Part shown: positions 531-48,467 of the stretch, piece after piece
Position numbering within the stretch: the first letter of the stretch is position 1
Layout: each line of letters begins with the position of its first letter
Source: Clostridia bacterium
GTDB taxonomy: Bacteria; Bacillota; Clostridia; Oscillospirales; CAG-272
Assembly: GCA_017456905.1 (NCBI GenBank)
Contig: JAFTIL010000018.1
Span: forward strand, 1-48,467
Reading direction: 5' to 3'
DNA length: 48,467 nucleotides
Program-made: the position numbers and the translations under genes
The notes under the pieces: generated by a model
The model's database searches: none
What the model was told of the DNA's origin: nothing
What the model saw: the letters and a program-made list of their open reading frames with translations, nothing else

Positions 531-557
531 GTGCACACCTCACTTTTTCTCGCCCTC

Positions 558-728: not shown

Positions 729-801
729 ATGTATAAGTATTTCTCCTCCGCTCGCGAGGAGACTTGCGATTGCATCAATATTCATTAGAGAGGAGAAAAA
801 C

Positions 802-2436: not shown

Positions 2437-2450
2437 TCTTTATCATCTTC

Positions 2451-2483
2451 ATCCCCTGATGCAAAAGCATCAGGGGATTTTTT
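2451..2483 (+). terminator. Rho-independent terminator
   Basis: Twelve-base perfect stem starting ATCCCCTGATGC, four-base A loop, then a run of six T. It lies 15 bases after the CBM9-like gene and closes that single-gene unit. Confidence 0.92.
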
Positions 2484-2528
2484 ATGCAAGATCGGAGGCT
2501 GTAGCATCCGGAAAATCCGCAAACAGGA

Positions 2529-2558
2529 TTGACAGAAGTGTCGTGGACATGGTATAAT
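2529..2558 (+). promoter_or_regulatory. Promoter of the cotH-like operon
   Basis: TTGACA (2529-2534) and TATAAT (2553-2558) with an 18-base spacer. The leader is about 110 bases and contains a GC hairpin (GCCGCC 2643-2648 pairing with GGCGGC 2653-2658) just 15 bases before the start codon. That hairpin could limit ribosome access, since the start has no strong Shine-Dalgarno sequence. Confidence 0.8.
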
Positions 2559-2673
2559 AAACCCATCGGCAATGAAAGGAAATTGCGTGAAACTTCTGTG
2601 ATCTAAAACCGAAGCTCACTGTTTCACGCGAAGTATATTTGTGCCGCCGCGTGGCGGCGAATTAGAGATTGAT

Positions 2674-4290
2674 ATGAAAAAAAACATTTGTTTATGCCTT
2701 GCGACGCTTCTTTTGTTTGCGCCACTCTTGAGTGCTTGCCACAACACCCAAGAACGCCCGAACGGAACCGCCGTACCCGAAACCACCGCGTCCGAAACAA
2801 CGGATGCACCGGCTGTTACTCCCCCCGTCGAGTCCTCGCCCCTGACCGCCGAACCCACAGAAACCGAAACTGACGCGGAGATCTACGAGCCTATAGCGCC
2901 CGCACCCGAAAGTGCGATCCATACCATGGAAGTCTCCGCCAAGGCCGCAGGAGAGCAGGTCTTGCAGATCACGGATCTCACCGCCAATCTTGAAAAAGGC
3001 AAGACCCACGTGAGGGTCATCCCTTCCTTGGGATACGTATGCCATGGCTTTACGTATGGCGACACCTTATACGCAGGAGATCTCATTCCGCTGTCCCTCA
3101 TAAAAAACGAAGTCGACCTGATCCTCCACATAGATTACGCAACCTATGAATTACCTATCGTCAATATTTCGGTGGATGGACAAGCCATTGAGTCCAAAAC
3201 CGAATACGTGGACATGACCTTTTCCATGGAAAACACCGAGGATATCCTTTTGGGGATTCACGGAGGCATCCGTCTGAGAGGCAACTCCACCGCCGGGATG
3301 CCCAAAAAGCCTTACCGCATCAAATTCGCGCAAAAGCAATCCCTCTTTGGTCTGGAAAAAGCCAAAAGCTGGGTGCTTCTGGCAGAATATCTGGACCCCT
3401 CCTGTCTGCACAATTACGCCGCCATGTATTTGGGCGCGGCATCGGATGAGCTCGCCTTTACCCCCACCATTCATCACGTCAACCTCTATCTCGACGGCGA
3501 ATATATGGGTCTCTTCTCCCTCTGCGAGCAGGTGGAGGAGGAACGGCTGGGCATTGAGCAGGAGATCACGGCAGATATGACGGATCTTATGGATTTCAGC
3601 TTTCTTGTCTGCATGGACGAGCGCGCCCCCGAGGAGGACGAGCCCTACTTTTTCGTGGCTTCGGCAGGAAAGTATTTCCAGCTCAAATACCCCCAGCAGG
3701 ATGATTTCGTCAGCCAGAAGCAGTACAAGCGCTTCATGAATCAGCTGGAGACCTATTACCATGATATGGCCAACGCCTTTAACAGCCGCAACCAAGCGTG
3801 GTTTAAGAAAAACATATATACCGACGCCCTCGCGGATCACCTGATCATCGATCAGATTATGGGAGAGAAGGACCACGTTTGGAAATCCTTCTACAGCTAC
3901 CACGACGCCACCGACGAAAGCCTCAAGGGTAAGCTCAGCTTCGGCCCTATTTGGGACTACGATTACAGCCTTTATACGCCTTGGACGGGGGAACCCAACG
4001 AGTCCTATACCGTGGACACAGGTGTGTATTATTCCAATTTCTTTTTTCAAGGACTCATGGGCAGCCGCTATAAAAGCAAGGTAGAAGCGAGATATAATCA
4101 GCATTATGCCGACGTATTGAAAGAACTGATCCAACATCTGGAAGCATATCACGACACCATTGAAGCGTCCCTTGCCCTCAATCAACAGCGGTGGTACGGT
4201 TACGACCCCGGCATGACCGAGGATAATTATGAATTTATGATCAAATTTTTCAAGAGTCGGCAGAAGATATTGAAGAATACGTGGGGATGA
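2674..4290 (+). CDS. CotH-family kinase-like lipoprotein
   Basis: A 538-residue lipoprotein with a type II signal peptide (lipobox LLSAC near residue 20) and an acidic Pro/Thr/Glu-rich spacer. A small N-terminal sandwich-like region precedes the CotH domain. CotH proteins are atypical secreted protein kinases, first known from spore coat protein H. Visible hallmarks are RGNST followed by KKPYRIKF, the LFGL...AKSWVLL segment, GEYMGLFSL, and GPIWDYDYS, where Asp residues are expected to bind metal-ATP. Many gut Clostridia carry surface CotH proteins unrelated to spores, and the lipid anchor suggests that here. The ATG at 2674 is preferred to the GTG at 2641 because only it gives a signal peptide. 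It is followed after 31 bases by the hydrolase gene and probably shares its transcript. Confidence 0.82.
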   Translation: MKKNICLCLATLLLFAPLLSACHNTQERPNGTAVPETTASETTDAPAVTPPVESSPLTAEPTETETDAEIYEPIAPAPESAIHTMEVSAKAAGEQVLQITDLTANLEKGKTHVRVIPSLGYVCHGFTYGDTLYAGDLIPLSLIKNEVDLILHIDYATYELPIVNISVDGQAIESKTEYVDMTFSMENTEDILLGIHGGIRLRGNSTAGMPKKPYRIKFAQKQSLFGLEKAKSWVLLAEYLDPSCLHNYAAMYLGAASDELAFTPTIHHVNLYLDGEYMGLFSLCEQVEEERLGIEQEITADMTDLMDFSFLVCMDERAPEEDEPYFFVASAGKYFQLKYPQQDDFVSQKQYKRFMNQLETYYHDMANAFNSRNQAWFKKNIYTDALADHLIIDQIMGEKDHVWKSFYSYHDATDESLKGKLSFGPIWDYDYSLYTPWTGEPNESYTVDTGVYYSNFFFQGLMGSRYKSKVEARYNQHYADVLKELIQHLEAYHDTIEASLALNQQRWYGYDPGMTEDNYEFMIKFFKSRQKILKNTWG

Positions 4291-4321
4291 TCCCTCTGCC
4301 GCCCTTACACAAGGAGGATAT

Positions 4322-5080
4322 ATGAACAAAGATCGAAACATCATCAATTCATCCACCCTTCACCTTTTCTGCAACACCAACGAGTCCGTCCTCACGCTGC
4401 CCGTCCGTGGATTCATTCTGGAATTTCCGGGCTTGGGCGGCGGCTCCTGTATGGGCGGCATCATGGATTTTGCCGAATACCGCGGAGGCTATGCCGAGAC
4501 GCTGGGCAAGGAGGGTATCTTGGTTGCCTATACCTTCCCGGGCCCCTGGAGCTGGATGAACCGAGGTGCCGTACGCTGCTGCGAGCTGATTGCTCACGCC
4601 ATCAGAGAGAAATATCACCTGCCCCAAGACACCCCCTGGGTGGTTACGGGCGGCAGTATGGGCGGTCTCGGTGCGCTGATCTTTTCTGCAGATGCCAACA
4701 TCAAGCCCTCCGCCTGTGTATCCGTTTGCCCCTGCGTAGACGTTCCCTATTGCTTTGAGGCCCACGGAGATTTTCGCCGCACGCTATTCCGTGCCGTGGC
4801 CGACTATGATGGTGGGATTAAAGAAAGCCTGTTGACCATCTCGCCCAAGCATCGGATCCACGATATGCCCTACATCCCCTATTTTCTCATCAACGATTGT
4901 GCCGACGAGCTCTTACCCGAAGCACAGATGGACGAATACGTAGCACAGATGCGCAAGCTGGGTCACAGCGTAGATTACGACCGTTTGGAAGGCTGTCATC
5001 ACGGCGAGATCACCCCCGAAGCCTGGACGCATATCATCGTATTTTTCAAGAAGCATTTGGGGCTCTCAGAAAGGACCTGA
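4322..5080 (+). CDS. Alpha/beta-hydrolase (prolyl oligopeptidase/esterase-like)
   Basis: A 252-residue cytoplasmic alpha/beta-hydrolase. The nucleophile elbow GGSMGG (near residue 115) supplies the serine. The catalytic Asp is probably in DCADELLP near residue 200 and the His in GCHHGE near residue 228. This pattern resembles S9-type peptidases and acyl esterases acting on small substrates. An AAGGAGG site sits four bases before the ATG. Its stop is two bases from the start of the HAD gene, so the two are translationally coupled. The substrate is not evident. An acetyl or feruloyl esterase role would fit a glycan-degrading organism, but that is inference. Confidence 0.75.
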   Translation: MNKDRNIINSSTLHLFCNTNESVLTLPVRGFILEFPGLGGGSCMGGIMDFAEYRGGYAETLGKEGILVAYTFPGPWSWMNRGAVRCCELIAHAIREKYHLPQDTPWVVTGGSMGGLGALIFSADANIKPSACVSVCPCVDVPYCFEAHGDFRRTLFRAVADYDGGIKESLLTISPKHRIHDMPYIPYFLINDCADELLPEAQMDEYVAQMRKLGHSVDYDRLEGCHHGEITPEAWTHIIVFFKKHLGLSERT

Positions 5081-8077: not shown

Positions 8078-9586
8078 TTACTTACGGGCCATCTCCAGAA
8101 GGATCTTTCCGTTCTGCTCGCCCAGGGTATAGCCATCGGCCTCGGGATTGACCGTCGCTTTCACAGCAACGGCATAGGGGAAGTCGCGGTAAGTTAAGGA
8201 GAAGATCTGATCGGCATAAGCAATATCCGCATCGGGCACGCCCGTGCTATAGAAGAGATTACCACAGGCTTCTGTCAAGATACGCTCGGGAGTCAGGATG
8301 ATGAGGCCGTGACAGCCGTCGGCAAAGAGCAGATCCACCTCAAGAGACTGCCCCTTCTCGATGCAGGTCATGGTCTTGACGGGACGGGTGATCACCAGCT
8401 CACTGTTTTTGCCGTCCTTGCTCCACAGGCGGCCGTCCACCATGGGGAGATTATCGTAGCGGGCATCCCAAGCAGTGCAGGCCTCGGTGAGATACCGTTC
8501 CTCGTAGCACTCATCAAATTTGGTAATATCGCGGAAGAAGAGTCTGCCCTCGTGGAGGAAGAGATTGGCTCGGTAGTTCGCACAGCTATACCAAACGGAC
8601 TGGTGGCCCCCCTCGGTCCAGTCGGTGGTGGCGCAAAGAGCAGAGGCAGGCGTGACCTTATGGGCCTTTTGATAAGCCGCACCCGTGTCACCCAGCTTTT
8701 CCACCGAGACAAGGCCCTTGTCTCGATATGCTGCGATCTTCTGCGCCTGCATACGGTAGCCGTTTTGGATCATATCCCAACCGAAGCTGTTTTCCTGTCC
8801 CGTGGTCATCTGAGAGAGGGTCAGGCAGGGATTTTTGTAATAGGTGTCCAGATACCAATCCACAATCTCGGCCTTGGATCCGGGTCCCCATACGGGCTCC
8901 ATGGTAGGGCAGCCCCAGACCTTGTCGGTATACTTCTGCTCGTCGTATCCGTACATGGGGTCGAGACCCAGCATACGGAACAGAGGGGTGGTGATGCCCG
9001 CCTCGGGGTTCTGGGCAGGACAGAGCATATTCTTACGGGAAGGATAGAAGGCGCCGCTATAGTAGCCACCCCACAAAGTATAGGCATCTACGGCGAACTG
9101 TTCGCGGCACACGCAAAACGCCTTCATGTCATACTTGTCGCTCATGTAAGCCAACGAGTGGGTATCAATGAGCCAGGAGCCCGCCACCTGCGGATAATAA
9201 CCGAAGGTCTCCTTGAAAAGACGGAAAGCCTCGTCGATGATGGCTTCGCGCTGTGCGGGTGTATAGGCAGGAAGGAATCCGGGGTTGACGAACCAGTCCC
9301 AATCATAGCCGGGGCGGCCGCGCCACTCAATACCCACGGCCTCGGTCAAGGGGCGGCCCATTTCAAACCAAAGACCGATCTCCATATGCTCGTCGGCCTC
9401 AGCCTTCATCAGCTCCACCATATCGGGGCGAATGAGGGCATCGTACTGCAAAAGGACGGTATGATCAAAACCGTAACTCTTGTTGATGGCGATCTCTTCT
9501 TTGATAGGGGTGTAAAGATCCTGCCAGGGCTGACGGGGCTCACAGCCGCGGACGAAATTGACAAGGTTCATGACGCGCTTTTTCAT
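8078..9586 (-). CDS. Uncharacterised protein with deacetylase/GH-like barrel
   Basis: I do not recognise a characterised family. This 502-residue protein lacks a signal peptide or membrane segment. The N-terminal two thirds reads like a NodB/GH57-type (beta/alpha)7 barrel: a strand with DHTVLLQYD, then HMEIGLWFE, a Trp-rich stretch (YDWDWF) and GSWLIDTHS, spaced as in polysaccharide-deacetylase-like enzymes. The last 150 residues look all-beta. Cytoplasmic location argues for action on imported oligosaccharides or for a non-secreted regulatory role. It is first in a two-gene leftward operon with the PHP phosphatase. AAGGAAG seven bases before the ATG supports the start. Alternative: a glycosidase of unassigned family. 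Confidence 0.6.
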   Translation of the reverse strand: MKKRVMNLVNFVRGCEPRQPWQDLYTPIKEEIAINKSYGFDHTVLLQYDALIRPDMVELMKAEADEHMEIGLWFEMGRPLTEAVGIEWRGRPGYDWDWFVNPGFLPAYTPAQREAIIDEAFRLFKETFGYYPQVAGSWLIDTHSLAYMSDKYDMKAFCVCREQFAVDAYTLWGGYYSGAFYPSRKNMLCPAQNPEAGITTPLFRMLGLDPMYGYDEQKYTDKVWGCPTMEPVWGPGSKAEIVDWYLDTYYKNPCLTLSQMTTGQENSFGWDMIQNGYRMQAQKIAAYRDKGLVSVEKLGDTGAAYQKAHKVTPASALCATTDWTEGGHQSVWYSCANYRANLFLHEGRLFFRDITKFDECYEERYLTEACTAWDARYDNLPMVDGRLWSKDGKNSELVITRPVKTMTCIEKGQSLEVDLLFADGCHGLIILTPERILTEACGNLFYSTGVPDADIAYADQIFSLTYRDFPYAVAVKATVNPEADGYTLGEQNGKILLEMARK

Positions 9587-9618
9587 AGGAGGGCTTCCTT
9601 TCAGTTTTCATTGTGATT

Positions 9619-9647
9619 ATGATACCACAATTCCGAGGCAAATGCAA
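9619..9647 (-). promoter_or_regulatory. Promoter of the 502-residue gene
   Basis: Leftward TTGCAT (9642-9647) and TATCAT (9619-9624) with a 17-base spacer, about 32 bases before the start codon. It departs from consensus at two -35 positions and one -10 position. Confidence 0.6.
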
Positions 9648-9669
9648 GGGGAACGAAAAAATTTATGCC

Positions 9670-9700
9670 AAAAAGTGCTCCGCCCATCACGGGCGGAGCA
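9670..9700 (-). terminator. Terminator of the lipoprotein gene
   Basis: Ten-base stem TGCTCCGCCC with loop and perfect partner (9676-9700). On the minus strand it is followed by five T (9670-9674). It lies nine bases after the lipoprotein stop. Confidence 0.88.
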
Positions 9701-9708
9701 GAGAAAAA

Positions 9709-10515
9709 TTATGAAGCAGACTCCAGGTTTTGCATGGTGTTGGGTGCATGGCAGAAGGCGATATAAGCCACGTCAAGGGACGCGCCCTCGGGCATGGTTT
9801 CACGGAGCTTGTTGTTCCCATCCATGACAACGTTGCCGTTTTCATCCAGCTTATAACCGGGATCCAGGGGGTCGAAACGCAGGTAAGACACCGTCTTTCC
9901 GTTGTACTTTCCACCATCGATTAAGGGCTTGGTGTCGATCACCAGATAGTTCCAGTTACCGTCACCAACCAGTCTGCCTTCCAGCATGGTGGAATCGTCC
10001 TGAGGACCCGTACCCGAAGAGGAAAGATATACCTGCATATTTACGCCGTCACAGTTGGCGGTTCTGTACTTGATGATGATGTAGCGGGCGCCGAGGAAGT
10101 CGTAGGCCGGATAATAGTAGGGATCCTCGCCCGTGGGAACGATGGTCACGTAATCCCCGTTGTCAACAATACCATTATCAAGATGGTAAATGCCTTGGGT
10201 GGAGATCAGCTTATCAACACCCAGCACCGTCACGGGAGTCGTGGGATCTCCGGGAGCCTCGGTGGGGGCCTCGGTAGGTGCTTCGGTGGGGATCTCAACG
10301 ATCTTTTCGGTCTCCGTATAGGTCAGCCATTCGGGGGGCACGGTAGGCGCTTCGGTAGGTTCTTCCGTGGGACCCTCGGTAAGTTCGGTAGGTGTATCTG
10401 TAACGCCGGGACTGCTCGTGTCGGGGAGATCGTCTCCGCTCGGTGTTTCATCACAGGCAACGACCGCCAGAAGCACGACTAAGAGAAGCGACAGAAAAAT
10501 CAACAACTTTTTCAT
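9709..10515 (-). CDS. Thr/Pro/Glu-linker lipoprotein with jelly-roll-like domain
   Basis: A 268-residue lipoprotein: type II signal peptide with lipobox AVVAC near residue 20, a long TEEPTEAPT-type spacer to about residue 92, then a single beta-rich domain to the end. The domain shares a pattern with the second domain of the CBM9-like protein at 802-2436. Both have an I-I-K-Y-R-T strand, then a DG(E/N)W-(R/N)Y-(A/L)V turn, a hydrophobic strand with F-x-P or F-D-P, and a final SxDxA(W/Y)(V/I) strand. The same module therefore occurs on a lipid anchor and on a transmembrane anchor. A glycan-binding role is plausible but unproven. The ATG has AAGGAG six to seven bases upstream. Single-gene unit with its own promoter and terminator. 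Confidence 0.7.
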   Translation of the reverse strand: MKKLLIFLSLLLVVLLAVVACDETPSGDDLPDTSSPGVTDTPTELTEGPTEEPTEAPTVPPEWLTYTETEKIVEIPTEAPTEAPTEAPGDPTTPVTVLGVDKLISTQGIYHLDNGIVDNGDYVTIVPTGEDPYYYPAYDFLGARYIIIKYRTANCDGVNMQVYLSSSGTGPQDDSTMLEGRLVGDGNWNYLVIDTKPLIDGGKYNGKTVSYLRFDPLDPGYKLDENGNVVMDGNNKLRETMPEGASLDVAYIAFCHAPNTMQNLESAS

Positions 10516-10572
10516 GGGAATTCTCCTTGCTTACGAATTTGGGAAACGGCATTTCCGTTTTCGGACACCTCT

Positions 10573-10601
10573 ATTTTACCATACTTTTCATGTTTTGACA
10601 A
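10573..10601 (-). promoter_or_regulatory. Promoter of the lipoprotein gene
   Basis: Leftward TTGTCA (10596-10601) and TAAAAT (10573-10578) with a 17-base spacer. It is divergent from the mreB promoter about 95 bases away. Confidence 0.72.
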
Positions 10602-10693
10602 TGGGGTTGGCAATTTTTTTCACCGTTTTCTCGTTTTTGTACGCAAATTCATTCTCTCACCGTATCCGTTCCTTGATTTTTTCCAAAAAGTCA

Positions 10694-10723
10694 TTGACAG
10701 AAGCCATGGGTTTGTGTTATACT
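10694..10723 (+). promoter_or_regulatory. mreB promoter
   Basis: TTGACA (10694-10699) and TATACT (10718-10723) with an 18-base spacer. It is followed at 10759-10767 by the strong ribosome site AGGAGGTGA that fixes the GTG start of mreB. Confidence 0.8.
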
Positions 10724-10771
10724 ATATGCGGAATACTATATCTTATCAAAAACATGACAGGAGGTGAGACG

Positions 10772-11809
10772 GTGTTTGAAAATCTCAAAAGAGATCTGAA
10801 ACGGGATATCGCTATAGATTTCGGTACGGCCACCGTGCTGGTCTACGTAGAAGGCAAAGACATCGTTCTCAAGGAGCCTTCTGTGGTTGCGGTGGATATG
10901 TCTACCGATCGTGTGGTCAAGGTTGGACGCGACGCCATGGAGATCCAAGGGCGTACACCTGAACATATCGAGACCATCCGACCCATGAAAAACGGGTCCA
11001 TCAGCCAATATGAAGTGACCCTGCAAATGCTGAAATATTTCATTCGCCGTGCCAGCGGTAAGACCTGGATCCCGCCCCGCGTCATGATCACTGTCCCTTC
11101 GGGCATCAGCGAGGTGGAAATGCTGGCCGTGATGGAGGCCTCCCGAGAGGCAGGCGCACGCCGCACCTATCTTATTGAAGAAGCCAAGGCTGCTGCGCTG
11201 GGTGCCAATCTGGATATTTCCTCCGCTGAGGGCTCTATGATCGTCAACATCGGCGGCGGTGTCACCGACGTAGCGGTGCTATCCATGGGCGGCATCGTGG
11301 TATCCGATTCCATCAAGGTGGGCGGCGACCGCTTTGATGAAGCCATCGTCAGCTATATCCGCCGACGTTACGGTATTCTGATCGGCGAGCGAACAGCCGA
11401 GGATATCAAGATCCGTATCGGCGAGGTGTTCGAGCATCAAAAGCCCTTGTATATGCGCGTCAGCGGACGCTCACTCAGCGAGGGTACACCCAAAGAAGTG
11501 GTGGTGTCCTCCAAGGAGACCATTGAGGCCGTTTCCGAGCCTCTGACCGCTATTCTGGACTCCATCTGCATGATCATTGAGACCATGCCCCAGGAGCTGT
11601 TTGCCGAGATCTCCCAAAAGGGCATGATCCTCACGGGCGGCGGCAGTATGCTCCACGGACTCGACAAGCTCATCACCCACGTGACGGGCGTACCCGCACG
11701 TCTGGCTAAGCGCCCCATCACCAGCGCTGTCCTGGGCGCAGGCAAGCTTCTGCCCTACCTCGACAGAATGCCCGAGGGTCTGGTCAGCCTCCCCGCCAAA
11801 ATGAGATAA
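10772..11809 (+). CDS. mreB: Rod shape-determining protein MreB/Mbl
   Basis: A 345-residue bacterial actin that directs lateral wall synthesis under the membrane. Phosphate 1 motif IAIDFGTATV (near residue 12), the connect and phosphate 2 regions (NIGGGVTDVAVLS), and the adenosine motif LTGGGSML near residue 288 are all present. I chose the GTG at 10772 because AGGAGGTGA precedes it by five bases and the product then begins at the family N-terminus (FENLKRDLKRDIAIDFG). The much longer upstream frame runs through the promoter. There are no mreC or mreD genes beside it, so it may be an Mbl-type paralogue. It is a single-gene unit. Confidence 0.94.
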   Translation: MFENLKRDLKRDIAIDFGTATVLVYVEGKDIVLKEPSVVAVDMSTDRVVKVGRDAMEIQGRTPEHIETIRPMKNGSISQYEVTLQMLKYFIRRASGKTWIPPRVMITVPSGISEVEMLAVMEASREAGARRTYLIEEAKAAALGANLDISSAEGSMIVNIGGGVTDVAVLSMGGIVVSDSIKVGGDRFDEAIVSYIRRRYGILIGERTAEDIKIRIGEVFEHQKPLYMRVSGRSLSEGTPKEVVVSSKETIEAVSEPLTAILDSICMIIETMPQELFAEISQKGMILTGGGSMLHGLDKLITHVTGVPARLAKRPITSAVLGAGKLLPYLDRMPEGLVSLPAKMR

Positions 11810-11822
11810 CCAAAGAAATCCA

Positions 11823-11857
11823 AGGGATCCCGGGGCATATCCCGAGATCCCTGTTTT
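11823..11857 (+). terminator. mreB terminator
   Basis: Stem AGGGATCCCGGG pairing with CCCGAGATCCCT (one mismatch), followed by G and four T. It lies 13 bases after the mreB stop and just before the pepD ribosome site. Confidence 0.8.
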
Positions 11858-11882
11858 ATGTAAAATCGCAAAGGAGATCACC

Positions 11883-13406
11883 ATGCATCATCAAAACCGC
11901 GGTATTTTGTCCGCTTACGAGCCTCACGGCGTTTTCTCTTTTTTTGAAGACCTCTGCACCATCCCCCATGGGTCGGGCAACGAAGCCGCCGTTGCAACCT
12001 ATATTGAAAATTTCGCCGCCTCCCGCCGTCTCTATTGCCACCGAGACAGCGTTCATAACGTTTTCATTCGTCTCCCCGCCTCCGAGGGCTGCGAGAATAA
12101 GCCTGCTGTTCTTTTGCAGGGACACACCGACATGGTCTGTGAAAAAGACAGCGACAGCAAGCATGATTTTCTCACCGACGGTCTCGACCTGTTCGTGGAG
12201 GACGGCAAGATCGGTGCTCGCGGTACGACCTTGGGCGGTGATAACGGCATCGCCGTAGCCATGATGCTGGCGCTTCTGGACAATCCTCCCGAAAAACACC
12301 CTGTGATCGAGTGCCTCTTTACCGTCTCCGAGGAGACGGGCTTGGAGGGCGCTCACGCCTTTGACCCTGCCGCGGTCGGCGTGGTGTCCAAGACCATGAT
12401 CAATCTGGACAGCGAATCCGAGAGCACCGTTACCGTGGGTTGCGCGGGCGGTATGCGTACGGATATCACCCAGCCCGTCACCCCCAAGGATGCCGAAGGC
12501 GTGCTGGTGAGAATTACGCTGTCGGGCTTCTCCGGCGGCCACTCGGGCGTGGAAATTCACGAGGGTCATACCAACGCCATCAAGGCCATGGGACGCCTTT
12601 TGAATATTACCACTACCTGTGATTGGGATCTGGTGTCCATCAACGGCGGTGGCAAGGATAACGCCATTCCCCGTGATTGCGAAGCGGAGATTTTGGTCTT
12701 TGATTTTGACGGCAACGGCGTTGCGGATGCCGAAAAATTCTGCGGCGAGATTTTGGCTGAGGCGGAAAAGCTTCGTGCCGAGCCCAATACCATTTTGGCC
12801 GATAAGCAGTTTTCTTGCACCGCCGAGATCGTGAACGAAAAGGCTTCGACCCTGATCCTTGACCTTGACGGCACCTGGGGCACGGTGACGCTTTTAACCC
12901 TCGCCCGTGATGGTGTGTTGGCCATGAACGCCCACGTGAAAGGCATGGTGGCCTATTCCCGCAATTTGGGTATCATCAAAACGCTGTGTGATGAGGACGG
13001 TACGCCTACCGCCGTGAAGTTCAGCTTTTCCACTCGTTCCGCTTGCGAATCCCATTTGGATGATGCTGAGCGTGAGCTGACTCGCTTGGCTATGATCTGC
13101 ACCGGCCTTTCCGACAATGCCACCCACCGTGCCCGTTATCCCGGCTGGGATTATGCGCCCGTGTCTCCCATCCGCGACCTGTGGTGTCAGACCGCCCAGG
13201 AGCTTTTAGGAAAAACGCCCCAAGTGGAGGCCATTCACGCGGGATTGGAGTGCGGTATCCTTTGCTCCAAAATGCCCGGCATGGACATCATTTCGGTGGG
13301 CCCCGATATGTGGGACATCCACACTCCCCGCGAGCGGCTGAGCATTAACTCCACCGCACGGTTGTATACGACACTCCTTTGTGTCATTGAAAAGCTCTGC
13401 AGATAA
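11883..13406 (+). CDS. pepD: Aminoacyl-histidine dipeptidase (Xaa-His dipeptidase), M20 family
   Basis: A 507-residue cytosolic zinc dipeptidase that cleaves Xaa-His and other dipeptides. Metal-site motifs follow the M20C pattern: LQGHTDMV (His and Asp near residue 78), TTLGGDNG (bridging Asp near 117), SEETGLEGA (Glu pair near 148) and MINLDSE (Asp near 173). A dimerisation insert with SGGHSGVEIH lies in the middle, and a C-terminal His closes the site (AIHAGLECG). Length equals the PepD family. AAGGAGATCACC directly precedes the ATG. It lies alone between two terminators; its promoter is not clear and may be readthrough past the mreB terminator. Confidence 0.93.
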   Translation: MHHQNRGILSAYEPHGVFSFFEDLCTIPHGSGNEAAVATYIENFAASRRLYCHRDSVHNVFIRLPASEGCENKPAVLLQGHTDMVCEKDSDSKHDFLTDGLDLFVEDGKIGARGTTLGGDNGIAVAMMLALLDNPPEKHPVIECLFTVSEETGLEGAHAFDPAAVGVVSKTMINLDSESESTVTVGCAGGMRTDITQPVTPKDAEGVLVRITLSGFSGGHSGVEIHEGHTNAIKAMGRLLNITTTCDWDLVSINGGGKDNAIPRDCEAEILVFDFDGNGVADAEKFCGEILAEAEKLRAEPNTILADKQFSCTAEIVNEKASTLILDLDGTWGTVTLLTLARDGVLAMNAHVKGMVAYSRNLGIIKTLCDEDGTPTAVKFSFSTRSACESHLDDAERELTRLAMICTGLSDNATHRARYPGWDYAPVSPIRDLWCQTAQELLGKTPQVEAIHAGLECGILCSKMPGMDIISVGPDMWDIHTPRERLSINSTARLYTTLLCVIEKLCR

Positions 13407-13411
13407 AACAC

Positions 13412-13447
13412 GCGGCACTCCACCAAGCACGGAGTGCCGCTTTCTTT
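13412..13447 (+). terminator. pepD terminator
   Basis: Ten-base perfect stem GCGGCACTCC with a nine-base loop, then TTTCTTT. It lies five bases after the pepD stop. Confidence 0.9.
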
Positions 13448-13546
13448 GTGTAAGTCTTGCACAAAAGTCATGGAGCAACTCCACGAAAACATTTGATACC
13501 AAACACATTTTCACCACAGACAGTTAATACGATGTTCATGATTTTG

Positions 13547-41796: not shown

Positions 41797-42996
41797 ATGA
41801 AAATTCTGGTCGTCAACGCCGGAAGCTCTTCCCTCAAGTATCAGCTTTTTGATATGGATGAGCAGAAGGTACTGGCAAAGGGACTTTGCGAGCAGATCGG
41901 TCCTGCGGGCAACATCACCCACAAGCGCCCCGGTCAGGCTACATATGCAGAGAGTTATCCCATGCCTACCCACAACGAGGCTATCGAACTGGTTCTGAAG
42001 CTGTTGACCGACGCCGAGTGGGGCGTCATCAAGAGCGTGGACGAGATCGGTGCCGTCGGCCACCGTTTCGCACACGGCGGCAAGTTCAAGAGCTCTCAGG
42101 TGCTCACCGATGCCGAGATGGAGTATCTTGAATCCATCGTTCCCATCAACCCCCTCCACGGCCCGCCCGCCATCAAGGGTGTGTACGCCTGCCGTGCCGT
42201 TTTGGCCGACAAGCCTCACATCGGTGTGTTTGACACATCCTTCTACTCCACCCTGGAGCCCAAGGCGTATATGTACGCCCTGCCCTACGAGTGGTACGAG
42301 AAGTACGGCATCCGCAAGTACGGCTTCCACGGCACCTCCCACCGTTACGTCGGCGCCAAGGCTGCTGAGTATCTGGGCAAGGATATCAAGGATCTGAAGA
42401 TCATCACCTGCCACATCGGCTCCGGTTCCTCCGTCACCGCCATCGACGGTGGCATCGCCGTGGACACCTCCATGGGCTTCACCCCCCAGGACGGTCTGCC
42501 CATGGGTACCCGTTGCGGCGCCATTGACCCCTCTCTCGTGACTTACATCATGAAGCAAACCGGCATGTCTCCCGACGAGATGGACAACGCTATGAACAAG
42601 AAGTCGGGTCTTCTGGGTGTTTCCGGTGTTTCCAACGACGGCCGCGAGGTCTGGACTGCTGCTGACGCGGGTAACGAGCGCGCTAAACTGGCTATGGATC
42701 TCATGGCTCGCGGTGCCATCAAGCTCATCGGCACCTACACCGCCGAGATGAACGGTCTCGACGTGCTGGTCTTCACCGCAGGCGTGGGCGAGAACGATCG
42801 CCGCACCCGTGAGATGGTTGCCGGTAATCTGTCCTTCTTCGGTATTGATTTCGATGCCGAGAAGAACATGACCGCTCCCCACGGCGATATTCTGGAGATC
42901 TCCAAGCCCGGCTCCAAGGTCAAGGTTCTGGTCATCCCCACCGACGAGGAATACATGATCGCTTGCGACACCAAGGCCCTGGCCGAGTCCCTCTGA
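41797..42996 (+). CDS. ackA: Acetate kinase
   Basis: A 399-residue acetate/propionate kinase that makes ATP from an acyl phosphate. Motifs: NAGSSSLKYQLF at the N-terminus, HRFAHGG near residue 90, GFHGTSHRYV near 180, and GSGSSVTAIDGG near 208, all as in the ASKHA kinase family. The start at 41797 has AAGGAG nine bases upstream; the earlier frame start is inside the leader. As the first gene before a BMC aldolase and acylating aldehyde dehydrogenase it probably handles the acyl phosphate produced from the compartment (lactoyl-, propionyl- or acetyl-phosphate). No phosphotransacetylase (pta or pduL) is in the window; a PduL may lie past the right edge. No encapsulation helix is seen. Confidence 0.95.
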   Translation: MKILVVNAGSSSLKYQLFDMDEQKVLAKGLCEQIGPAGNITHKRPGQATYAESYPMPTHNEAIELVLKLLTDAEWGVIKSVDEIGAVGHRFAHGGKFKSSQVLTDAEMEYLESIVPINPLHGPPAIKGVYACRAVLADKPHIGVFDTSFYSTLEPKAYMYALPYEWYEKYGIRKYGFHGTSHRYVGAKAAEYLGKDIKDLKIITCHIGSGSSVTAIDGGIAVDTSMGFTPQDGLPMGTRCGAIDPSLVTYIMKQTGMSPDEMDNAMNKKSGLLGVSGVSNDGREVWTAADAGNERAKLAMDLMARGAIKLIGTYTAEMNGLDVLVFTAGVGENDRRTREMVAGNLSFFGIDFDAEKNMTAPHGDILEISKPGSKVKVLVIPTDEEYMIACDTKALAESL

Positions 42997-43101: not shown

Positions 43102-43920
43102 ATGGCACAGTCTCCCTTTGAAATCAAAAAAGAAATCGTTGACATCGGTAAGAGAATCTACGATCACGGTTTCGTTGCCGCAAACGACGGTAACATCTCT
43201 GTAAAGGTCGGCCCCAACGAGTACTACTGCACCCCTACCGGTGTATCCAAGGGCTTCATGACCCCCGACATGATCATCAAGATCGACGCCAACGGTAACA
43301 AGCTGGACGGTAAGCTGAACCCCTCCTCCGAGATCAAGATGCACATGAGAGTGTATCAGGAGCGTCCCGACGCAGGCGCTGTCGTTCACGCTCATCCCCC
43401 TGTGGCTACCGCTTTCACCGTTGCCGGTGTTGAGCTGGACCAGTACATCCTGCCCGAGGCTATTCTGACCATCGGTAACGTGCCTACCTGCGATTACGGT
43501 ATGCCCTCCACCATGGAGATCCCCGAGTCCCTGATGCCCTACATCCAGAAGCACGACGCATTCCTGCTGAAGAACCACGGCGCTCTGACCGTTGGTAACA
43601 CCCTGCTCCGCGCTTGCTTCACCATGGAAGAGGTTGAATTCAACGCAAAGATCAACCTGTACGCTCGCCAGATCGGTGCCGGCGCCAACAGCCGCATCGA
43701 CGAGATCTCCTGCCACGAGCTGGAGAGACTCATGGAGCTGCGTAAGAAGATGGGTCTGCCCGGCAAGCATCCCGGTTGTAAGTCCTGCCCCAACAAGGGT
43801 ACCGACAAGTGCAAGTGCAAGGACAACGCCGGCAAGTGCGACTGTGGTCACAACCACGGTGCCGACAACGATCTCGTCGCTGAGATCACCCGCAAGGTTC
43901 TGGCCGCTCTGGGTAAGTAA
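43102..43920 (+). CDS. BMC class II aldolase (fuculose/rhamnulose-phosphate type) with Cys-rich linker and C-terminal encapsulation helix
   Basis: A 272-residue zinc aldolase. The core (1-215) matches L-fuculose-1-phosphate aldolase: catalytic Glu77 and zinc ligands His96, His98 and His159. It would split fuculose- or rhamnulose-1-phosphate into lactaldehyde and dihydroxyacetone phosphate. After the core comes a segment with six Cys (226, 229, 237, 239, 246, 248) and two His (250, 252), then DNDLVAEITRKVLAALGK, an amphipathic helix of the type that targets enzymes into microcompartments. Similar helices begin the next two enzymes. The Cys/His segment is unusual for a linker and could bind zinc or an iron-sulfur cluster. 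GAAAGGA lies before the ATG. The substrate is inferred from the family and context. Confidence 0.9.
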   Translation: MAQSPFEIKKEIVDIGKRIYDHGFVAANDGNISVKVGPNEYYCTPTGVSKGFMTPDMIIKIDANGNKLDGKLNPSSEIKMHMRVYQERPDAGAVVHAHPPVATAFTVAGVELDQYILPEAILTIGNVPTCDYGMPSTMEIPESLMPYIQKHDAFLLKNHGALTVGNTLLRACFTMEEVEFNAKINLYARQIGAGANSRIDEISCHELERLMELRKKMGLPGKHPGCKSCPNKGTDKCKCKDNAGKCDCGHNHGADNDLVAEITRKVLAALGK

Positions 43921-43963
43921 TTTCCTCGTCGGAACCACTACTTAACAGAAAGGAAGAACCGAC

Positions 43964-45421
43964 ATGGCAATCAACTGGACTGAGGCACAGGTTGCCGAGC
44001 TGGTCGCGAAGGTCGTCTCCGAGATCCGCTCCGGTTCCCCTGCCGCAACTGAAAGCTGGGATTCCACCCAGTACAACGGTCGCAAGCTGATCGGCGTTTA
44101 CGCCACCATGGAGGAGGCCATCGCCGCCGCCGAGGTAGGCTACAAGGCCATCCGCGCCACCAGCGTCGCTGACCGCGAGAAGTTCATTACTTCCATCCGT
44201 AATTACTGCCGCGCCGAGGCAGGCACCATGGCTGCTCTCGGTGTTGCTGAAACCAAGATGGGTCGCGTGGATCACAAGACCGCCAAGCACATGTTGGTGG
44301 CCGACAAGACCCCCGGCACCGAGGACATCGTGGCCGAGGCCAAGACCGGTGACTACGGTCTGACCCTCACCGAGCGCGCTCCCTTCGGTGTGGTGGGTGC
44401 CATCACCCCCTCCACCAACCCCTCCGAGACCGTCATTTGTAACAGCATGGGTATGATCGCCGCCGGCAACGGCGTTGTGTTCAATCCTCACCCCGGCGCT
44501 ATCGCCACCTCCAACTACGCCGTTGACCTGGTCAACCGCGCCGTTCACGCCGCAGGCGGTCCCGAGGTACTGGTAGCTTCCGTGGCTAAGCCCACGCTGG
44601 ACACCGCCAACGTGATGTACAAGCACCCCGCCATTCGTCTGCTGGTCTGCACCGGCGGCCCCGGCGTGGTCAAGGCCGTTCTCGCCTCCGGTAAGAAGGC
44701 CATCGGTGCAGGCGCGGGTAACCCCCCTGTCATCGTGGACGACACCGCAGACATCGAGAAGGCCGCCAAGGACATCATCGACGGTTGCACCTTCGACAAC
44801 AACCTCCCCTGCATCGCAGAGAAGGAAGTCTTCGTGTTCAACAACGTGGCTGACCGTCTCATCGCGGGTATGCAGAAAAACGGCTGTATCCTTCTCACCC
44901 GTGAGCAGGCCGACAAGCTGGCTGACGTGGTGCTGAACAAGAAGGTCAACGAGAAGACCGGCAAGGTCTCCTACGTGGTCAACCGTGACTGCGTGGGCCG
45001 TGACGCCCGTGTCATTCTTGCCAAGATCGGCATCAACGTGGGTCCCGAGATCCGCTGCGCCATCGCCGAGGTTCCCTTCGAGCACCTGTTCGTGCAGGAG
45101 GAGCTGATGATGCCCATTCTGGGTATCGTCCGCGTCAAGGACATCGACGAGGCCATTGAGTTGGCTTGCAAGGCTGAGCATGGCAATCGCCACACCGCCC
45201 ATATGCACTCCAAGAACATCGACAACCTCTCCCGCTTCGCGAAGGAAGTGGAGACCACCATCTTCGTCAAGAACGCTCCCTCTTATGCAGGTATCGGCTT
45301 TGGCGGCGAGGGTCATACCACCTTCACCATCGCAGGCCCCACGGGCGAGGGTATCACCTCGGCTAAGTCCTTCACCAGACTCCGCCGTTGCGTGATGGCC
45401 GATCACTTCAGAATTATTTGA
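43964..45421 (+). CDS. BMC CoA-acylating aldehyde dehydrogenase (PduP/EutE-like)
   Basis: A 485-residue aldehyde dehydrogenase that makes acyl-CoA from aldehyde, CoA and NAD. Residues 3-22 (INWTEAQVAELVAKVVSEIR) form an amphipathic helix followed by a Gly/Ser/Pro-rich linker, the usual N-terminal encapsulation peptide of PduP. The catalytic Cys283 is in DNNLPCIAEKE; the Rossmann region (FGVVGAITPSTNP) and GAGAGNPPVIVD agree with the EutE/PduP group. If lactaldehyde is the substrate the product is lactoyl-CoA, but acetaldehyde or propionaldehyde are possible. Cofactor recycling would be with the alcohol dehydrogenase that follows. AGAAAGGAAG lies before the ATG. Confidence 0.93.
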   Translation: MAINWTEAQVAELVAKVVSEIRSGSPAATESWDSTQYNGRKLIGVYATMEEAIAAAEVGYKAIRATSVADREKFITSIRNYCRAEAGTMAALGVAETKMGRVDHKTAKHMLVADKTPGTEDIVAEAKTGDYGLTLTERAPFGVVGAITPSTNPSETVICNSMGMIAAGNGVVFNPHPGAIATSNYAVDLVNRAVHAAGGPEVLVASVAKPTLDTANVMYKHPAIRLLVCTGGPGVVKAVLASGKKAIGAGAGNPPVIVDDTADIEKAAKDIIDGCTFDNNLPCIAEKEVFVFNNVADRLIAGMQKNGCILLTREQADKLADVVLNKKVNEKTGKVSYVVNRDCVGRDARVILAKIGINVGPEIRCAIAEVPFEHLFVQEELMMPILGIVRVKDIDEAIELACKAEHGNRHTAHMHSKNIDNLSRFAKEVETTIFVKNAPSYAGIGFGGEGHTTFTIAGPTGEGITSAKSFTRLRRCVMADHFRII

Positions 45422-45565
45422 GGAGTACGCCAAAGTGAAACTTTTTGAAAAAGTTTCACTCTGGACTCCTTTCAAAAACTTTAAGAAATTTATTCATTAA
45501 AGTTCTTTGAATCCAAAACTTTCTTTCAAGAAAGTTTTGGCAGGGTTCGGGACAGCGTCCCGAGA
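45421..45565 (+). repeat. Intergenic palindromic repeat, copy C (three hairpins)
   Basis: Three palindromes in a row. First, AGTGAAACTT (45434-45443) pairs with 45451-45460. Second, CCAAAACTTTCTT (45513-45525) pairs perfectly with 45528-45540. Third, CGGGAC pairs with GTCCCG (45548-45562). The first matches copy B near fakA. This block lies between the aldehyde dehydrogenase and alcohol dehydrogenase genes; the promoter of the downstream genes is not evident, so it may act as a partial terminator or RNA processing point. Confidence 0.7.
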
Positions 45566-45589
45566 TACTATAGAAAGGAAACAAAAACA

Positions 45590-46816
45590 ATGGATATTTC
45601 CGCTAATCAGATCGAAGCCATTGTCCGCCAAGTCGTCGCCTCTATGGGCACCTCCGCACCCAAGGCCGCAGGTCCCCTGCCCAAGGTTGCCAAGGTGGCT
45701 ATGTTGGTCGGCCCCAAGAAGATCGAGATCCAGGAAGTTCCCCTGCCCCAGTTGGGTGAGGACGACATTCTGATCAAGGTCGAGGGCGCAGGCATCTGCG
45801 GCACCGACGTACATGAGTGGAAGATGGATCCCTTCGGTCTCATGCCCGTAGTTCTCGGTCACGAGGGCACAGGTGAGGTCGTCTACTGCGGTAAGAACAT
45901 TACCAAGGACACCGCAGGCAAGCCCCTGGGTGTTGGCGACAAGATCGTTACCTCCGTTATCTCCTGCGGCGACTGCTATAACTGCCGCATGACCCCCGGT
46001 CGCACCAACCTCTGCGCCAATCAGGGCGTTTTCGGCCTGATCGGTGACAAGAGAGGGACCGACGAGGGCAACCGTGCCAACGGTTGGTTTGCCGACTATA
46101 TGCTCATCCGCGGCGGTGAGGCTTCTGGCGCTACCTTCTTCCAGGTCAACGAACTGAACCTCAACCAGCGCATGATCCTCGAGCTGGCTTGCGTTTGCGT
46201 ACACGCCCTCGAGAGAGGCCAGAAGACCGGTCTTCTGAACTTCGGTTCCAAGGTACTGGTTCAGGGCTGCGGCCCTGTGGGTCTGGTCATGATCACCGTT
46301 CTCCGCGCAGCAGGTATCAACCACATCATCGCCGTTGACGGTAACGAAGACCGTCTGAAGGTTGCTCAGAAGATGGGTGCCAAGACCACCGTCTGCTTCA
46401 AGCGTCCCGACGAGGACACCCTGGACAAGCGCGTTGCCAAGGTTCAGGCCGTGGCCAACGGTGTCGGCGTTGATTTTGCCTTCCAGTGCACCGGTGCTCC
46501 CGTGGCCGCCGCAGACATTTACGCTTACATCCGCCGCGGTGGCGGTATGTGCGAGATGGGCTTCTTCGTCAACAACGGCGAGTATTCCGTCAACCCCCAC
46601 TTCGCTATGTGTAACAAGGAAATCGACATCGTCGGTTCTTGGGACTACAGCGCTGAGGACTACCCCAAGACCGTTGCTTTCCTGAAGCAGTGCCAGGAGA
46701 TGAACATTCCGATCGAGGAGCTCATCACCCACACCTTCCCCCTCGAGCAGATGAACGAGGCTATGGAAACCAACGTGGCGCAAAAGGGCATCAAGATTGC
46801 CTACATCGCTAAATAA
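45590..46816 (+). CDS. BMC zinc-dependent alcohol dehydrogenase (MDR family) with N-terminal encapsulation helix
   Basis: A 408-residue medium-chain zinc dehydrogenase. Residues 3-20 (ISANQIEAIVRQVVASMG) form an amphipathic helix followed by a Pro/Ala linker, a likely targeting peptide absent from cytosolic relatives. Catalytic zinc ligands: Cys70, His91 and Glu92 region (GHEGTGE); structural zinc: Cys126, 129, 132 and 142. The NAD fold has QGCGPVGL. Most characterised BMCs use iron-type dehydrogenases such as PduQ or EutG, so a zinc MDR enzyme here is less usual. It may reduce lactaldehyde to 1,2-propanediol and recycle NADH. GAAAGGAAAC lies before the ATG. Confidence 0.9.
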   Translation: MDISANQIEAIVRQVVASMGTSAPKAAGPLPKVAKVAMLVGPKKIEIQEVPLPQLGEDDILIKVEGAGICGTDVHEWKMDPFGLMPVVLGHEGTGEVVYCGKNITKDTAGKPLGVGDKIVTSVISCGDCYNCRMTPGRTNLCANQGVFGLIGDKRGTDEGNRANGWFADYMLIRGGEASGATFFQVNELNLNQRMILELACVCVHALERGQKTGLLNFGSKVLVQGCGPVGLVMITVLRAAGINHIIAVDGNEDRLKVAQKMGAKTTVCFKRPDEDTLDKRVAKVQAVANGVGVDFAFQCTGAPVAAADIYAYIRRGGGMCEMGFFVNNGEYSVNPHFAMCNKEIDIVGSWDYSAEDYPKTVAFLKQCQEMNIPIEELITHTFPLEQMNEAMETNVAQKGIKIAYIAK

Positions 46817-46833
46817 GAAAAGGAGTTACCGCC

Positions 46834-47184
46834 ATGGCAGCTCTTGGAATGATTGAAGTTTACGGATTTGCCACCTCCGTAGTCGTCGCCGATGCCTGTG
46901 CAAAGGCTGCCGACGTAAAGATCGTGGCTATCGACCGTAACAAGCCCGCCAACGCAGATCAGTGCGAGGTGCCGCTGGTAATGGTCGTTAAGTTCGAGGG
47001 TAATCCTGCTGCCGTCGAGGCCGCCCACGATGCGGGCAAGGTCGAAGCTGAAAAGCGCGGACTATTCATTACCTCTCGAATCATCGCGGGACTTGACCCC
47101 AGCGTCGAGTGGTTCGCCCACCTGACCGCTACGGGTCGCGACAAGCTCCGCAATTACACCACCGTTGACGGCAAAAAGGTCTGA
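46834..47184 (+). CDS. BMC shell protein (single BMC domain) with enlarged pore loop
   Basis: A 116-residue single BMC-domain protein. The start MAALGMIEVYGFATSVVVADACAK (shown here only as family-type N-terminus, AALGMIEVYG) and GNPAAVEAAHDAG mark the BMC fold. Where PduA/EutM-like proteins have the short pore motif KIGSG, this one has a longer loop, RNKPANADQCEVPLV, with Cys44. It resembles a BMC-H subfamily with the NKPANAD loop that occurs in glycyl-radical-type compartments, I believe; the link is by memory of the motif. Six Cys around a hexamer axis could bind a metal cluster or form a redox gate. The C-terminus extends beyond the domain (DPSVEWFAHL and a basic tail). AAAGGAG lies before the ATG. 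Confidence 0.88.
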   Translation: MAALGMIEVYGFATSVVVADACAKAADVKIVAIDRNKPANADQCEVPLVMVVKFEGNPAAVEAAHDAGKVEAEKRGLFITSRIIAGLDPSVEWFAHLTATGRDKLRNYTTVDGKKV

Positions 47185-47242
47185 CGAACAGACGCCTCAA
47201 CGCATAAAAAACAAAAAATAATTTTTTAAGGAGAATAAAACA

Positions 47243-47515
47243 ATGAACGAAGCTCTTGGTATGGTTGAAACTCGTGGTCTCGTAGCTGCAATCGAGGCAG
47301 CTGATGCAATGGTTAAGGCCGCTAACGTTACTCTGATCGGCTCTGAGAAGATCGGTTCCGGTCTCGTGTCCGTCATGGTCCGCGGCGACGTCGGTGCTGT
47401 TAAGGCTGCTGTTGAGGCAGGCGGCGCTGCTGCTTCCCGTCTCGGCGAGGTCATCGCTACTCACGTCATCCCCAGACCCCACACCGACGTGGATAAGCTC
47501 CTGCCCTCCATCTAA
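47243..47515 (+). CDS. BMC hexameric shell protein (PduA/EutM-like), copy 1
   Basis: A 90-residue canonical BMC-H protein: [20 protein letters not shown] at the N-terminus, pore motif EKIGSGLV near residue 35-42, [13 protein letters not shown], and the C-terminal [14 protein letters not shown]. It forms hexagonal tiles of the shell with a small polar pore. AAGGAG lies before the ATG. Its product differs from the shell protein at 48030-48302 at only one residue (Ser versus Lys at position 89). Confidence 0.97.
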
Positions 47516-47524
47516 GAAGAACGA

Positions 47525-47600
47525 GGGGCACTGCCCCTGACCCCGCCTGAAACCCTTTTTAAAAAAAGGGTTTCAGGACTTCCCGAAAACTTTTAAATAA
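47525..47600 (+). repeat. Intergenic palindromic repeat, copy D
   Basis: GGGGCACTGCCCC-type palindrome (47525-47537), then a 15-base stem CCTGAAACCCTTTTT (47546-47560) with its partner AAAAAGGGTTTCAGG (47563-47577), then GAAAACTTTTA. It belongs to the same loose family as copies B, C and E. The T/A stretches could allow partial termination between shell genes. Confidence 0.7.
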
Positions 47601-47658
47601 GGATTTGAGACTGGGGAAAAACGTTCTTGCCTACCAAACGAAAGCGAGGTACTGAAAC

Positions 47659-47943
47659 ATGGAAAAGGCAATCGCTCTGCTGGAAGTCCAGGCAATGGTT
47701 ACGGCTATTGTAGGTCTTGACGCGATGGTCAAGGCCGCCGACGTGAAGCTCATTCACGTTGAAAAGCGCTTGGGCGGACGACTCGTCACTCTCGTGGTCG
47801 AGGGTAGCGTTTCTGCGGTCCAGGCTGCCGCCGAAGCCGGCAAAGCTGCCGCTGCCGAGGTCGGTCCCGTCAAGCTTTGTGAGGTCATCGCTCGTCCTCA
47901 CGAGGAAGTTATGAAGTTCCTTCGCACCGATCCCGTGCCCTGA
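47659..47943 (+). CDS. BMC hexameric shell protein, divergent type
   Basis: A 94-residue BMC-H protein. KAIALLEVQAMVTAIVGLDA begins the domain, and the pore region is EKRLGGRLV instead of EKIGSGLV, so the central pore would be lined by different, more basic residues. AEAGKAAAAEVGPV and IARPHEEVMKFL complete the domain. It is set off from the neighbouring shell genes by spacers of about 140 and 86 bases. GCGAGGT before the ATG is a modest ribosome site. It likely provides a shell tile of different permeability. Confidence 0.93.
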   Translation: MEKAIALLEVQAMVTAIVGLDAMVKAADVKLIHVEKRLGGRLVTLVVEGSVSAVQAAAEAGKAAAAEVGPVKLCEVIARPHEEVMKFLRTDPVP

Positions 47944-48029
47944 TGGCAGGATCGCCCGCGAATGAAACTTATATACGTAAGCCCTTAAAACAAATTTTAA
48001 AAGTAAATTTTCTTTAGGAGGAAAATACA

Positions 48030-48302
48030 ATGAACGAAGCTCTTGGTATGGTTGAAACCAGAGGTCTTGTGGCTGCTATTGAGGCTGCCGATGCTATGGT
48101 CAAGGCTGCTAACGTAACCCTCATCGGTTCCGAGAAGATCGGTTCCGGTCTCGTGAGCGTTATGGTTCGCGGCGACGTTGGTGCTGTGAAGGCTGCTGTT
48201 GAGGCAGGCGGCGCTGCTGCTTCCCGTCTCGGCGAGGTCATCGCTACTCACGTCATCCCCAGACCCCACACCGATGTGGATAAGCTCCTGCCCAAGATCT
48301 GA
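48030..48302 (+). CDS. BMC hexameric shell protein (PduA/EutM-like), copy 2
   Basis: A 90-residue BMC-H protein, identical to the product of 47243-47515 except Lys for Ser at residue 89. In the first 53 codons about 21 codons differ, all silently; from codon 54 to 82 there are 86 identical bases. This mix indicates an old duplication with recent gene conversion of the 3' part and strong selection on the protein. The ribosome site TTAGGAGGAAA is stronger than that of copy 1. Having two copies may raise the dose of the main shell tile. Confidence 0.97.
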
Positions 48303-48314
48303 TTGATTGGATAG

Positions 48315-48380
48315 GAGCGCGCAAGGGCGGAACCTTCTTAAAAGAAGGTTCCCCCTTGACCCCCTCCAAGAACCTTCAAA
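48315..48380 (+). repeat. Intergenic palindromic repeat, copy E
   Basis: Stem GGAACCTTCTT (48329-48339) with AAGAAGGTTCC (48342-48352), extended by CAAGGG and CCTTG arms (48322-48327 and 48354-48358), then CCTCCAAGAACCTTCAAAA. It is the same style as copies C and D, directly after the last shell gene seen. Confidence 0.65.
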
Positions 48381-48467
48381 ATGTACGAATGAAAGATCAC
48401 TTCTCATAAAGCGGTTTTTGATTTTTACATTTTGGTTTATTAAGATAATGAAGAAAAGAGGTTACAT
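48381..48467 (+). other. Right edge, probable leader of the next BMC gene
   Basis: AT-rich sequence with AAGAAAAGAGGTTACAT at the very end. AGAGG eight bases before a possible ATG cut by the window edge suggests that another gene starts here. The BMC locus therefore probably continues to the right. Confidence 0.4.

Follow-up and report, generated by a model that had tools for sequence, protein, structure and literature searches.

The window, by which we mean the whole stretch of 48,467 nucleotides that was analysed, ends in a run of forward-strand genes that read as a microcompartment operon. An acetate kinase (41797..42996; PF00871, E 1.5e-134; start codon from the ORF list) is followed by a class II aldolase with a C-terminal extension (43102..43920; 272 residues, PF00596 over residues 11-185, E 1.9e-47), an aldehyde dehydrogenase (AldDH) of the PduP/EutE kind (43964..45421; PF00171, NF011927 at 661 bits) and a zinc-type MDR alcohol dehydrogenase (ADH; 45590..46816; PF08240 and PF00107), and the N-terminal extensions of both dehydrogenases are free of Cys. 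BMC-H shell proteins matching PF00936 come next: one with an NKPANAD loop (46834..47184), one at 47243..47515, one of a second type (47659..47943) and one at 48030..48302 whose translation is near-identical to that of 47243..47515. The operon runs past the end of the window. Positions 1-4585 of a further contig of the same genome (G000:C63, L294) repeat positions 43883-48467 of the window with one mismatch, which is likely an unmerged overlap, and onward from there lie PduL, a pentamer-type protein, a PduS-like protein, a PduT-like BMC-T protein, a glycyl radical enzyme (PF02901 and PF01228), its radical SAM activase, a BMC-H protein and PduV. We infer that the two contigs are adjacent, an arrangement that matches G283, G200 and G209, each of which has its aldolase and glycyl radical enzyme 7-8 kb apart on a single contig. 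Contig 59 carries a second aldolase, 96% identical, which likely belongs to a second strain; assembly contamination is 8.8%. The nearest named records are Oscillospiraceae and Clostridia bins, several of them from the guts of deer, goat and sheep.

With a class II aldolase, a glycyl radical enzyme and an activase in one shell-gene locus, given the adjacency of the two contigs, the locus is classed from its gene content as GRM5-type (fucose/rhamnose) with its own gene order, and activity on fuculose- or rhamnulose-phosphate would be expected of it. Loci of this type are also marked by PduS and PduT and by the absence of GrpU, and a PduS-like and a PduT-like protein are present here. The GRM5 systems of Clostridium phytofermentans and Roseburia inulinivorans, as far as the available parts of the papers describe them, share the class II aldolase, the PduP-type AldDH, the zinc MDR alcohol dehydrogenase, the glycyl radical enzyme with its activator, a PduS homologue and PduT (PMC3557285, PMC4207490, PMC6325248). 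Unlike in those descriptions, acetate kinase and aldolase head the operon here and the glycyl radical enzyme follows the BMC-T gene. PVM and PVM-like microcompartments also have a class II aldolase as signature enzyme and acetate kinase in their gene sets, but the glycyl radical enzyme that is present here is not described for them in the sections available (PMC4207490, PMC8217296).

The assignment of the aldolase to the class II family (PF00596) follows from the domain match together with a metal-binding set of His and Glu. Residues E77, H96, H98 and H159 did not vary across 40 aligned aldolase rows, and we take them to be the Zn ligands, as in FucA. The sequence-only reading of this DNA had placed the end of the aldolase at about residue 215. 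The extension instead begins at about residue 223-225, because most non-compartment relatives that share the C-terminal region stop no more than about 25 residues past a GKHP or GRHP motif (residues 221-224). The same reading had reported Cys at 226, 229, 237, 239, 246 and 248 and His at 250 and 252, and these positions are exact in the 272-residue ORF. All six Cys lie in the linker between the aldolase core and the terminal helix (residues 223-254, 43768..43863). The first four form a module, C226-x2-C229-x7-C237-x-C239 with N231, G233 and T234 (43777..43818), and after it come the second CxC and the two His (43837..43857). Six Cys per 32 residues has a binomial chance of 3.7e-5 at a 2% background, but conservation is the stronger test.

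The last 18 residues (255-272, 43864..43917) form a putative encapsulation helix. No Cys occurs within the last 18 residues of any of the 123 distinct extensions of compartment-locus aldolases. The hydrophobic moment of this tail in the window's aldolase comes to 0.399, where shuffled versions average 0.246, and 1137 of 10000 shuffles attained it, so amphipathicity is not significant by itself here. The resemblance to an encapsulation peptide agrees with the position of the helix and with its absence from two non-compartment relatives, L135 and L138. Searches with the 53-residue tail matched neither a Pfam family (E <=1) nor a PDB sequence (E <=10), zinc ribbon, ferredoxin and metallothionein families included, though so short a query gives such searches little power.

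Conservation of the linker was read from a sample of 187 unique aldolase sequences, of which 184 were retained; those left out were L258 (open) and L062 and L068, which are cut by contig ends and retain part of the four-Cys module. The pattern C-x2-C-x-N-x-G-T-x2-C-x-C occurs in 42 of the 44 unique aldolases at >=70% identity, the window's own counted. The exceptions are L135 and L138, which also lack the packing helix, and a search for BMC-domain genes found none in their genomes. Column counts were made on 45 rows selected by the motif itself, so 42/44 is the fair conservation figure. Within those 45 sequences TGC and TGT switch at three of the four module Cys positions, and outside the Cys, N, G and T of the module the linker differs among aldolases by substitution and length. 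On these patterns the first four linker Cys are judged to be under constraint. The residues beyond the module behave differently from the fixed four: a second CxC follows in 27 of the 45, two wider-spaced Cys in 2 and a single Cys in 6, while 10 have no further Cys, and the number of His is zero in 11, one in 20, two in 13 and four in 1. Given this variation, the CxCxHxH part of the spacing that the sequence-only reading had singled out is no conserved signature, whereas its first CxxC and CxC are fixed. Conserved His ligands were dropped as a candidate because His number past the module ranges from 0 to 4.

The linker Cys track the compartment. Of the 124 aldolases that have a shell gene no more than 10 kb away, 113 carry at least two of them, compared with 4 of the 35 that have sufficient flank and no such gene (Fisher 1.7e-19, uncorrected for kinship), a contrast that is inflated because the rows are related; 25 of the 184 aldolases had too little flank and were excluded from this count. 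The four non-compartment aldolases with at least two linker Cys are L109, L239, L242 and L245. L109 has four and no shell gene within 8 kb, and as it was scored from these 8 kb flanks alone the scoring may be wrong. Kinship was addressed with independent pairs drawn on a tree of aldolase cores, tail excluded. A first run gave 9 pairs (on average 5.3 in the same direction, 1.0 opposite and 2.7 neutral; p about 0.22), and with two relatives added there were 11 pairs (7.0, 1.0 and 3.0), with a median p of 0.07 (0.04-0.22). When only helix-length tails were compared, at least two Cys were found in 113 of 123 versus 2 of 5 (Fisher 0.007), but this left 5 pairs and p 0.63. The association between compartment and linker Cys is borderline after tree correction.

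Eleven genomes with an aldolase relative lacking shell neighbours were searched for BMC-domain genes, as distinct from BMC-P genes (PF03319), and 9 had no match. In these nine genomes the linker holds no Cys in five (G1114, G1120, G177, G028 and G039), one in three (G419, G1018 and G993) and two in G1034. The aldolases of G1114 and G1120 (L352 and L353) have kept a helix-like tail with no Cys, whereas L239 of G1034 has a helix-like tail with two Cys, counter to the trend. Cys-free aldolase linkers were also sought in two genera, where 7 of the 33 loci read were without Cys; by linker sequence five of the seven were already in the set and two were new (L337 and L351). No shell gene was seen by eye in the stretches around the new ones (L352 and L353), and their genomes are the BMC-domain-negative ones just named. 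The two remaining genomes of the eleven are G659, with a BMC set on a separate contig, and G875, with a BMC-domain fragment. This fragment is a match in a 51-codon open frame (G875:C3:68172-68297) beside aldolase L242, which lacks the helix and retains two linker Cys; the locus seems to be that of a compartment recently fallen into decay. A separate lead, from one locus only, is L354 of Acetoanaerobium noterae (8953-13494), where an aldolase with a tail and a single linker Cys lies with AldDH, shell genes and PduL, and no PduS or BMC-T match was found in 18.8 kb.

Co-occurrence of the Cys segment with the zinc alcohol dehydrogenase and the NKPANAD-type shell protein had been put forward as a check, and no link with either partner was found. 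At least two linker Cys are found in 68 of 74 aldolases with an ADH match and 9 of 11 without, and in 67 of 73 with the NKPANAD-type protein and 10 of 12 without. Metal buffering for the alcohol dehydrogenase is therefore not favoured and was dropped, as Cys linkers are about equally common where there is no ADH match and L224 and L226, which have none, carry them.

Across the aldolases the number and spacing of linker Cys differ widely by lineage, with C-x2-C-x7-C-x-C, C-x9-C-x2-C-x3-C, C-x2-C-x2-C and a lone C-x-C all represented. Among the more distant compartment aldolases, whose Cys occupy this junction too, linkers resembling CPNxxxGxxSCHxCGGxC occur in 33 rows that begin A[DN]xC, and for 28 of these a motif list shows a glycyl-radical-type ORF in the fetched stretch. 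L224, L226 and their kin have CxxCGxC linkers and may be of the PVM or PVM-like type; the aldolase sample was without PVM loci of Planctomycetes. A clade of 38 loci with short linkers mostly has one CxC in the aldolase linker. In L136, L137 and L139 there are tandem pairs of class II aldolases, which share about 38% and 63-69% identity with the aldolase of the window; both members have a helix-like tail, and their linkers carry different Cys clusters.

The aldolase extension is far richer in Cys than those of the other cargo enzymes. Cys makes up 8.4% of the full extension (441 of 5242 residues) and 14.6% once the last 18 residues are removed (441 of 3028), as counted over the 123 distinct extensions. 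In the same loci the whole N-terminal extensions contain 0.55% (AldDH), 1.4% (ADH) and 1.3% (PduL), with start codons that are a rule-based choice and unproven. The reading of Cys in other cargo linkers covered 123 of the 124 compartment aldolases, with the distant row L248_10074 dropped. The sequence-only reading had held that homologues with the same compartment and no such Cys or His would speak against it. In the short-linker clade, seven aldolases (64-67% identity) from compartment loci of this kind do have Cys-free linkers, which speaks in part against that reading, but five of the seven have two to four Cys in an ADH or PduL linker. L097, L101 and L102 have four in PduL (and L101 two more in AldDH), L083 has three in ADH, and L089 has two in each of ADH and PduL. 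L110 has at least two Cys in none of the four linkers read, and for L104 PduL was not found in the stretch covered. The five loci with Cys elsewhere suggest a function that may be tied to the compartment and not to the aldolase alone.

Among the 26 complete short-linker loci (12 of the 38, L102 included, are missing at least one linker), at least two Cys are found elsewhere in 5 of 6 loci with fewer than two aldolase Cys, compared with 3 of the other 20 (Fisher 0.0045). With the cut set at zero aldolase Cys the figures are 4 of 5 versus 4 of 21 (Fisher 0.02), and over all 38 loci, missing linkers ignored, they are 6 of 8 versus 3 of 30. On the tree there are 4 independent pairs, 3.0 in the same direction, 0.2 opposite and 0.8 neutral (median p 0.25), so a shift of Cys between cargo linkers is suggestive. 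Overall, some cargo linker has at least two Cys in 119 of 123 aldolase rows (120 loci), and it is usually that of the aldolase itself. The four rows without such a linker are L110, which is complete, and L104, L240 and L238, where one or two of the remaining linkers are missing. In L048, L049 and L050 an aldolase linker with five Cys is found together with an ADH N-terminal linker of the HECKCGGNCKCGGHGH type, a Cys/His cluster resembling CKC..CKCGGHGH. PduL of other Firmicutes offered a weak control, as the N-terminal extension is absent in 25 of the 30 best PduL loci; in 20 further loci shell genes were present in 9, where the four extensions that could be read had at least two Cys in no case.

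The best explanation of these data, although a tentative one, is that the linker thiolates bind metal, fold the linker and hold cargo tails together, a function that would be relevant only inside the compartment and could be transferred to other cargo linkers. The arrangement would be a Cys4 module after a FucA-like core, then a variable Cys/His stretch, then the putative encapsulation helix. The thiolates would bind Zn2+, or Fe2+ or an Fe-S cluster in these presumed anaerobes, and so fold the linker, and the bound metal would hold neighbouring tails together beside the shell, since encapsulation helices cluster. Where the aldolase linker has no Cys, the ADH or PduL linker would carry the function. 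According to the available parts of two papers, encapsulation peptides associate as trimers (PMC12339742) and bind between shell tiles (PMC11157265), which would allow Cys from several tails to come together at that place. We infer metal binding, stapling and functional compensation by the Cys shift from these sequence patterns. The fixed module with its turn residues N, G and T looks like a small metal site, and the fixed four-Cys spacing is still most naturally read as a metal or Fe-S site. Against this explanation stand the wide differences in Cys number and spacing among lineages, which are unlike a tuned cofactor site, the loci L110, L239 and L109 described above, and the weakening of both associations by tree correction. 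Of the metal or Fe-S site or disulfide switch that was first suggested beside the cargo helix, the Cys stand as real, constrained and tracking the compartment, while the His are not conserved.

A different role for an Fe-S cluster, in which the linker Cys ligate it to pass electrons among the cargo, PduS and the Fe-S pore protein PduT, is rather unlikely. The partners for such a relay exist: PduS in this operon has a 4Fe-4S dicluster domain and the BMC-T protein a CPGKY site, and aldolase and PduL linkers of other lineages have CxxCxxC and C-x3-C-x2-C spacings. PduS and BMC-T matches are present in 82 of the 85 compartment loci with enough flank, but that makes them too constant to serve as correlates, and the short-linker clade has both while its linkers hold one CxC or none. 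The aldolase reaction requires no electrons. Linkers with 2, 3, 4, 5 and 6 Cys all exist, which also counts against it. The varied spacings, the two-Cys versions beside the helix and the occurrence of clusters on more than one kind of cargo are better explained by thiolate metal binding, perhaps shared between tails, than by a tuned electron carrier.

Likewise unlikely, at a slightly lower level, is that disulfides form reversibly between cargo linkers and make the cargo condensate harder or looser. The Cys adjoin the helix, their spacing varies by lineage and clusters sit on the linkers of different cargo, all as this model would have it, and the portion available of one study describes designer condensates tuned by disulfides (PMC11403603). 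However, the hosts, judging from the titles of their metagenome-assembled genomes, resemble gut anaerobes, and the N, G and T that stay constant between the Cys pairs point to a folded site. Less probable again is that the thiols scavenge lactaldehyde, propionaldehyde or radicals inside the lumen. Reactive aldehydes are expected from the pathway, a glycyl radical enzyme occurs in many of these loci or genomes, and any spacing on any cargo would do, but the exact spacing is left unexplained. CoA and other thiols would compete with those of the linker. G744 and G833 have CxxCGxC aldolase linkers although their genomes gave no PFL-like match. Radical protection is thus not general, and protection of the glycyl radical enzyme was dropped as a general role. 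Drift in composition of an unconstrained linker, with Cys of no function, is very improbable: linkers are reported as poorly conserved and disordered in the available text of PMC12339742 and this one does vary in length and sequence outside the Cys, but the spacing holds in 42 of 44 aldolases, Cys are 6 to 15 times as abundant as in the extensions of the other cargo enzymes in the same loci, and 8 of 9 relatives from BMC-negative genomes have 0 or 1 linker Cys.

The proposed compartment-dependent metal-thiolate site can be set beside what is known of other systems. The encapsulation-peptide linkers of PduP and others likewise lie between the enzyme core and a terminal helix, but where such linkers are in general described as poorly conserved and disordered (PMC12339742, in part), the aldolase linker has its 14.6% Cys and a fixed module. 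The nearest features described, in the portions of the literature available, are the Cys-rich C-terminal extension of the shell protein PduK, proposed to hold an Fe-S cluster (PMC12058022, PMC6325248), and the Fe-S pores of PduT and GrpU. These are also microcompartment Cys sites with Fe-S proposed or reported, but PduK, PduT and GrpU are shell proteins, whereas here the Cys cluster is on enzyme cargo. The parts available of the GRM5 papers (PMC3557285, PMC4207490, PMC6325248) do not mention a Cys-rich aldolase linker, and those available of the literature on the microcompartment catalogue and its taxonomy, on GRM loci and on C. phytofermentans cover the aldolase, or class II aldolases that bear packing helices, and no such linker. 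Among the matches listed from the open-licence literature, no title or opening of an abstract concerned Cys in microcompartment cargo linkers.

A broader proposition, which we put forward with more doubt than the metal site itself, is that aldolase microcompartments need a Cys-rich, metal-binding cargo tether, which evolution may move among aldolase, ADH and PduL and discard when the compartment is lost. If this is true, the linker of a packing tag has a function in the organelle and is no passive spacer. A Cys module on cargo beside the packing tag contrasts with linkers described as poorly conserved spacers, and, if conserved and tied to the shell, it would bring the packing and hardening of the organelle under metal or redox control. 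Such a linker could also be a design element in engineered compartments.
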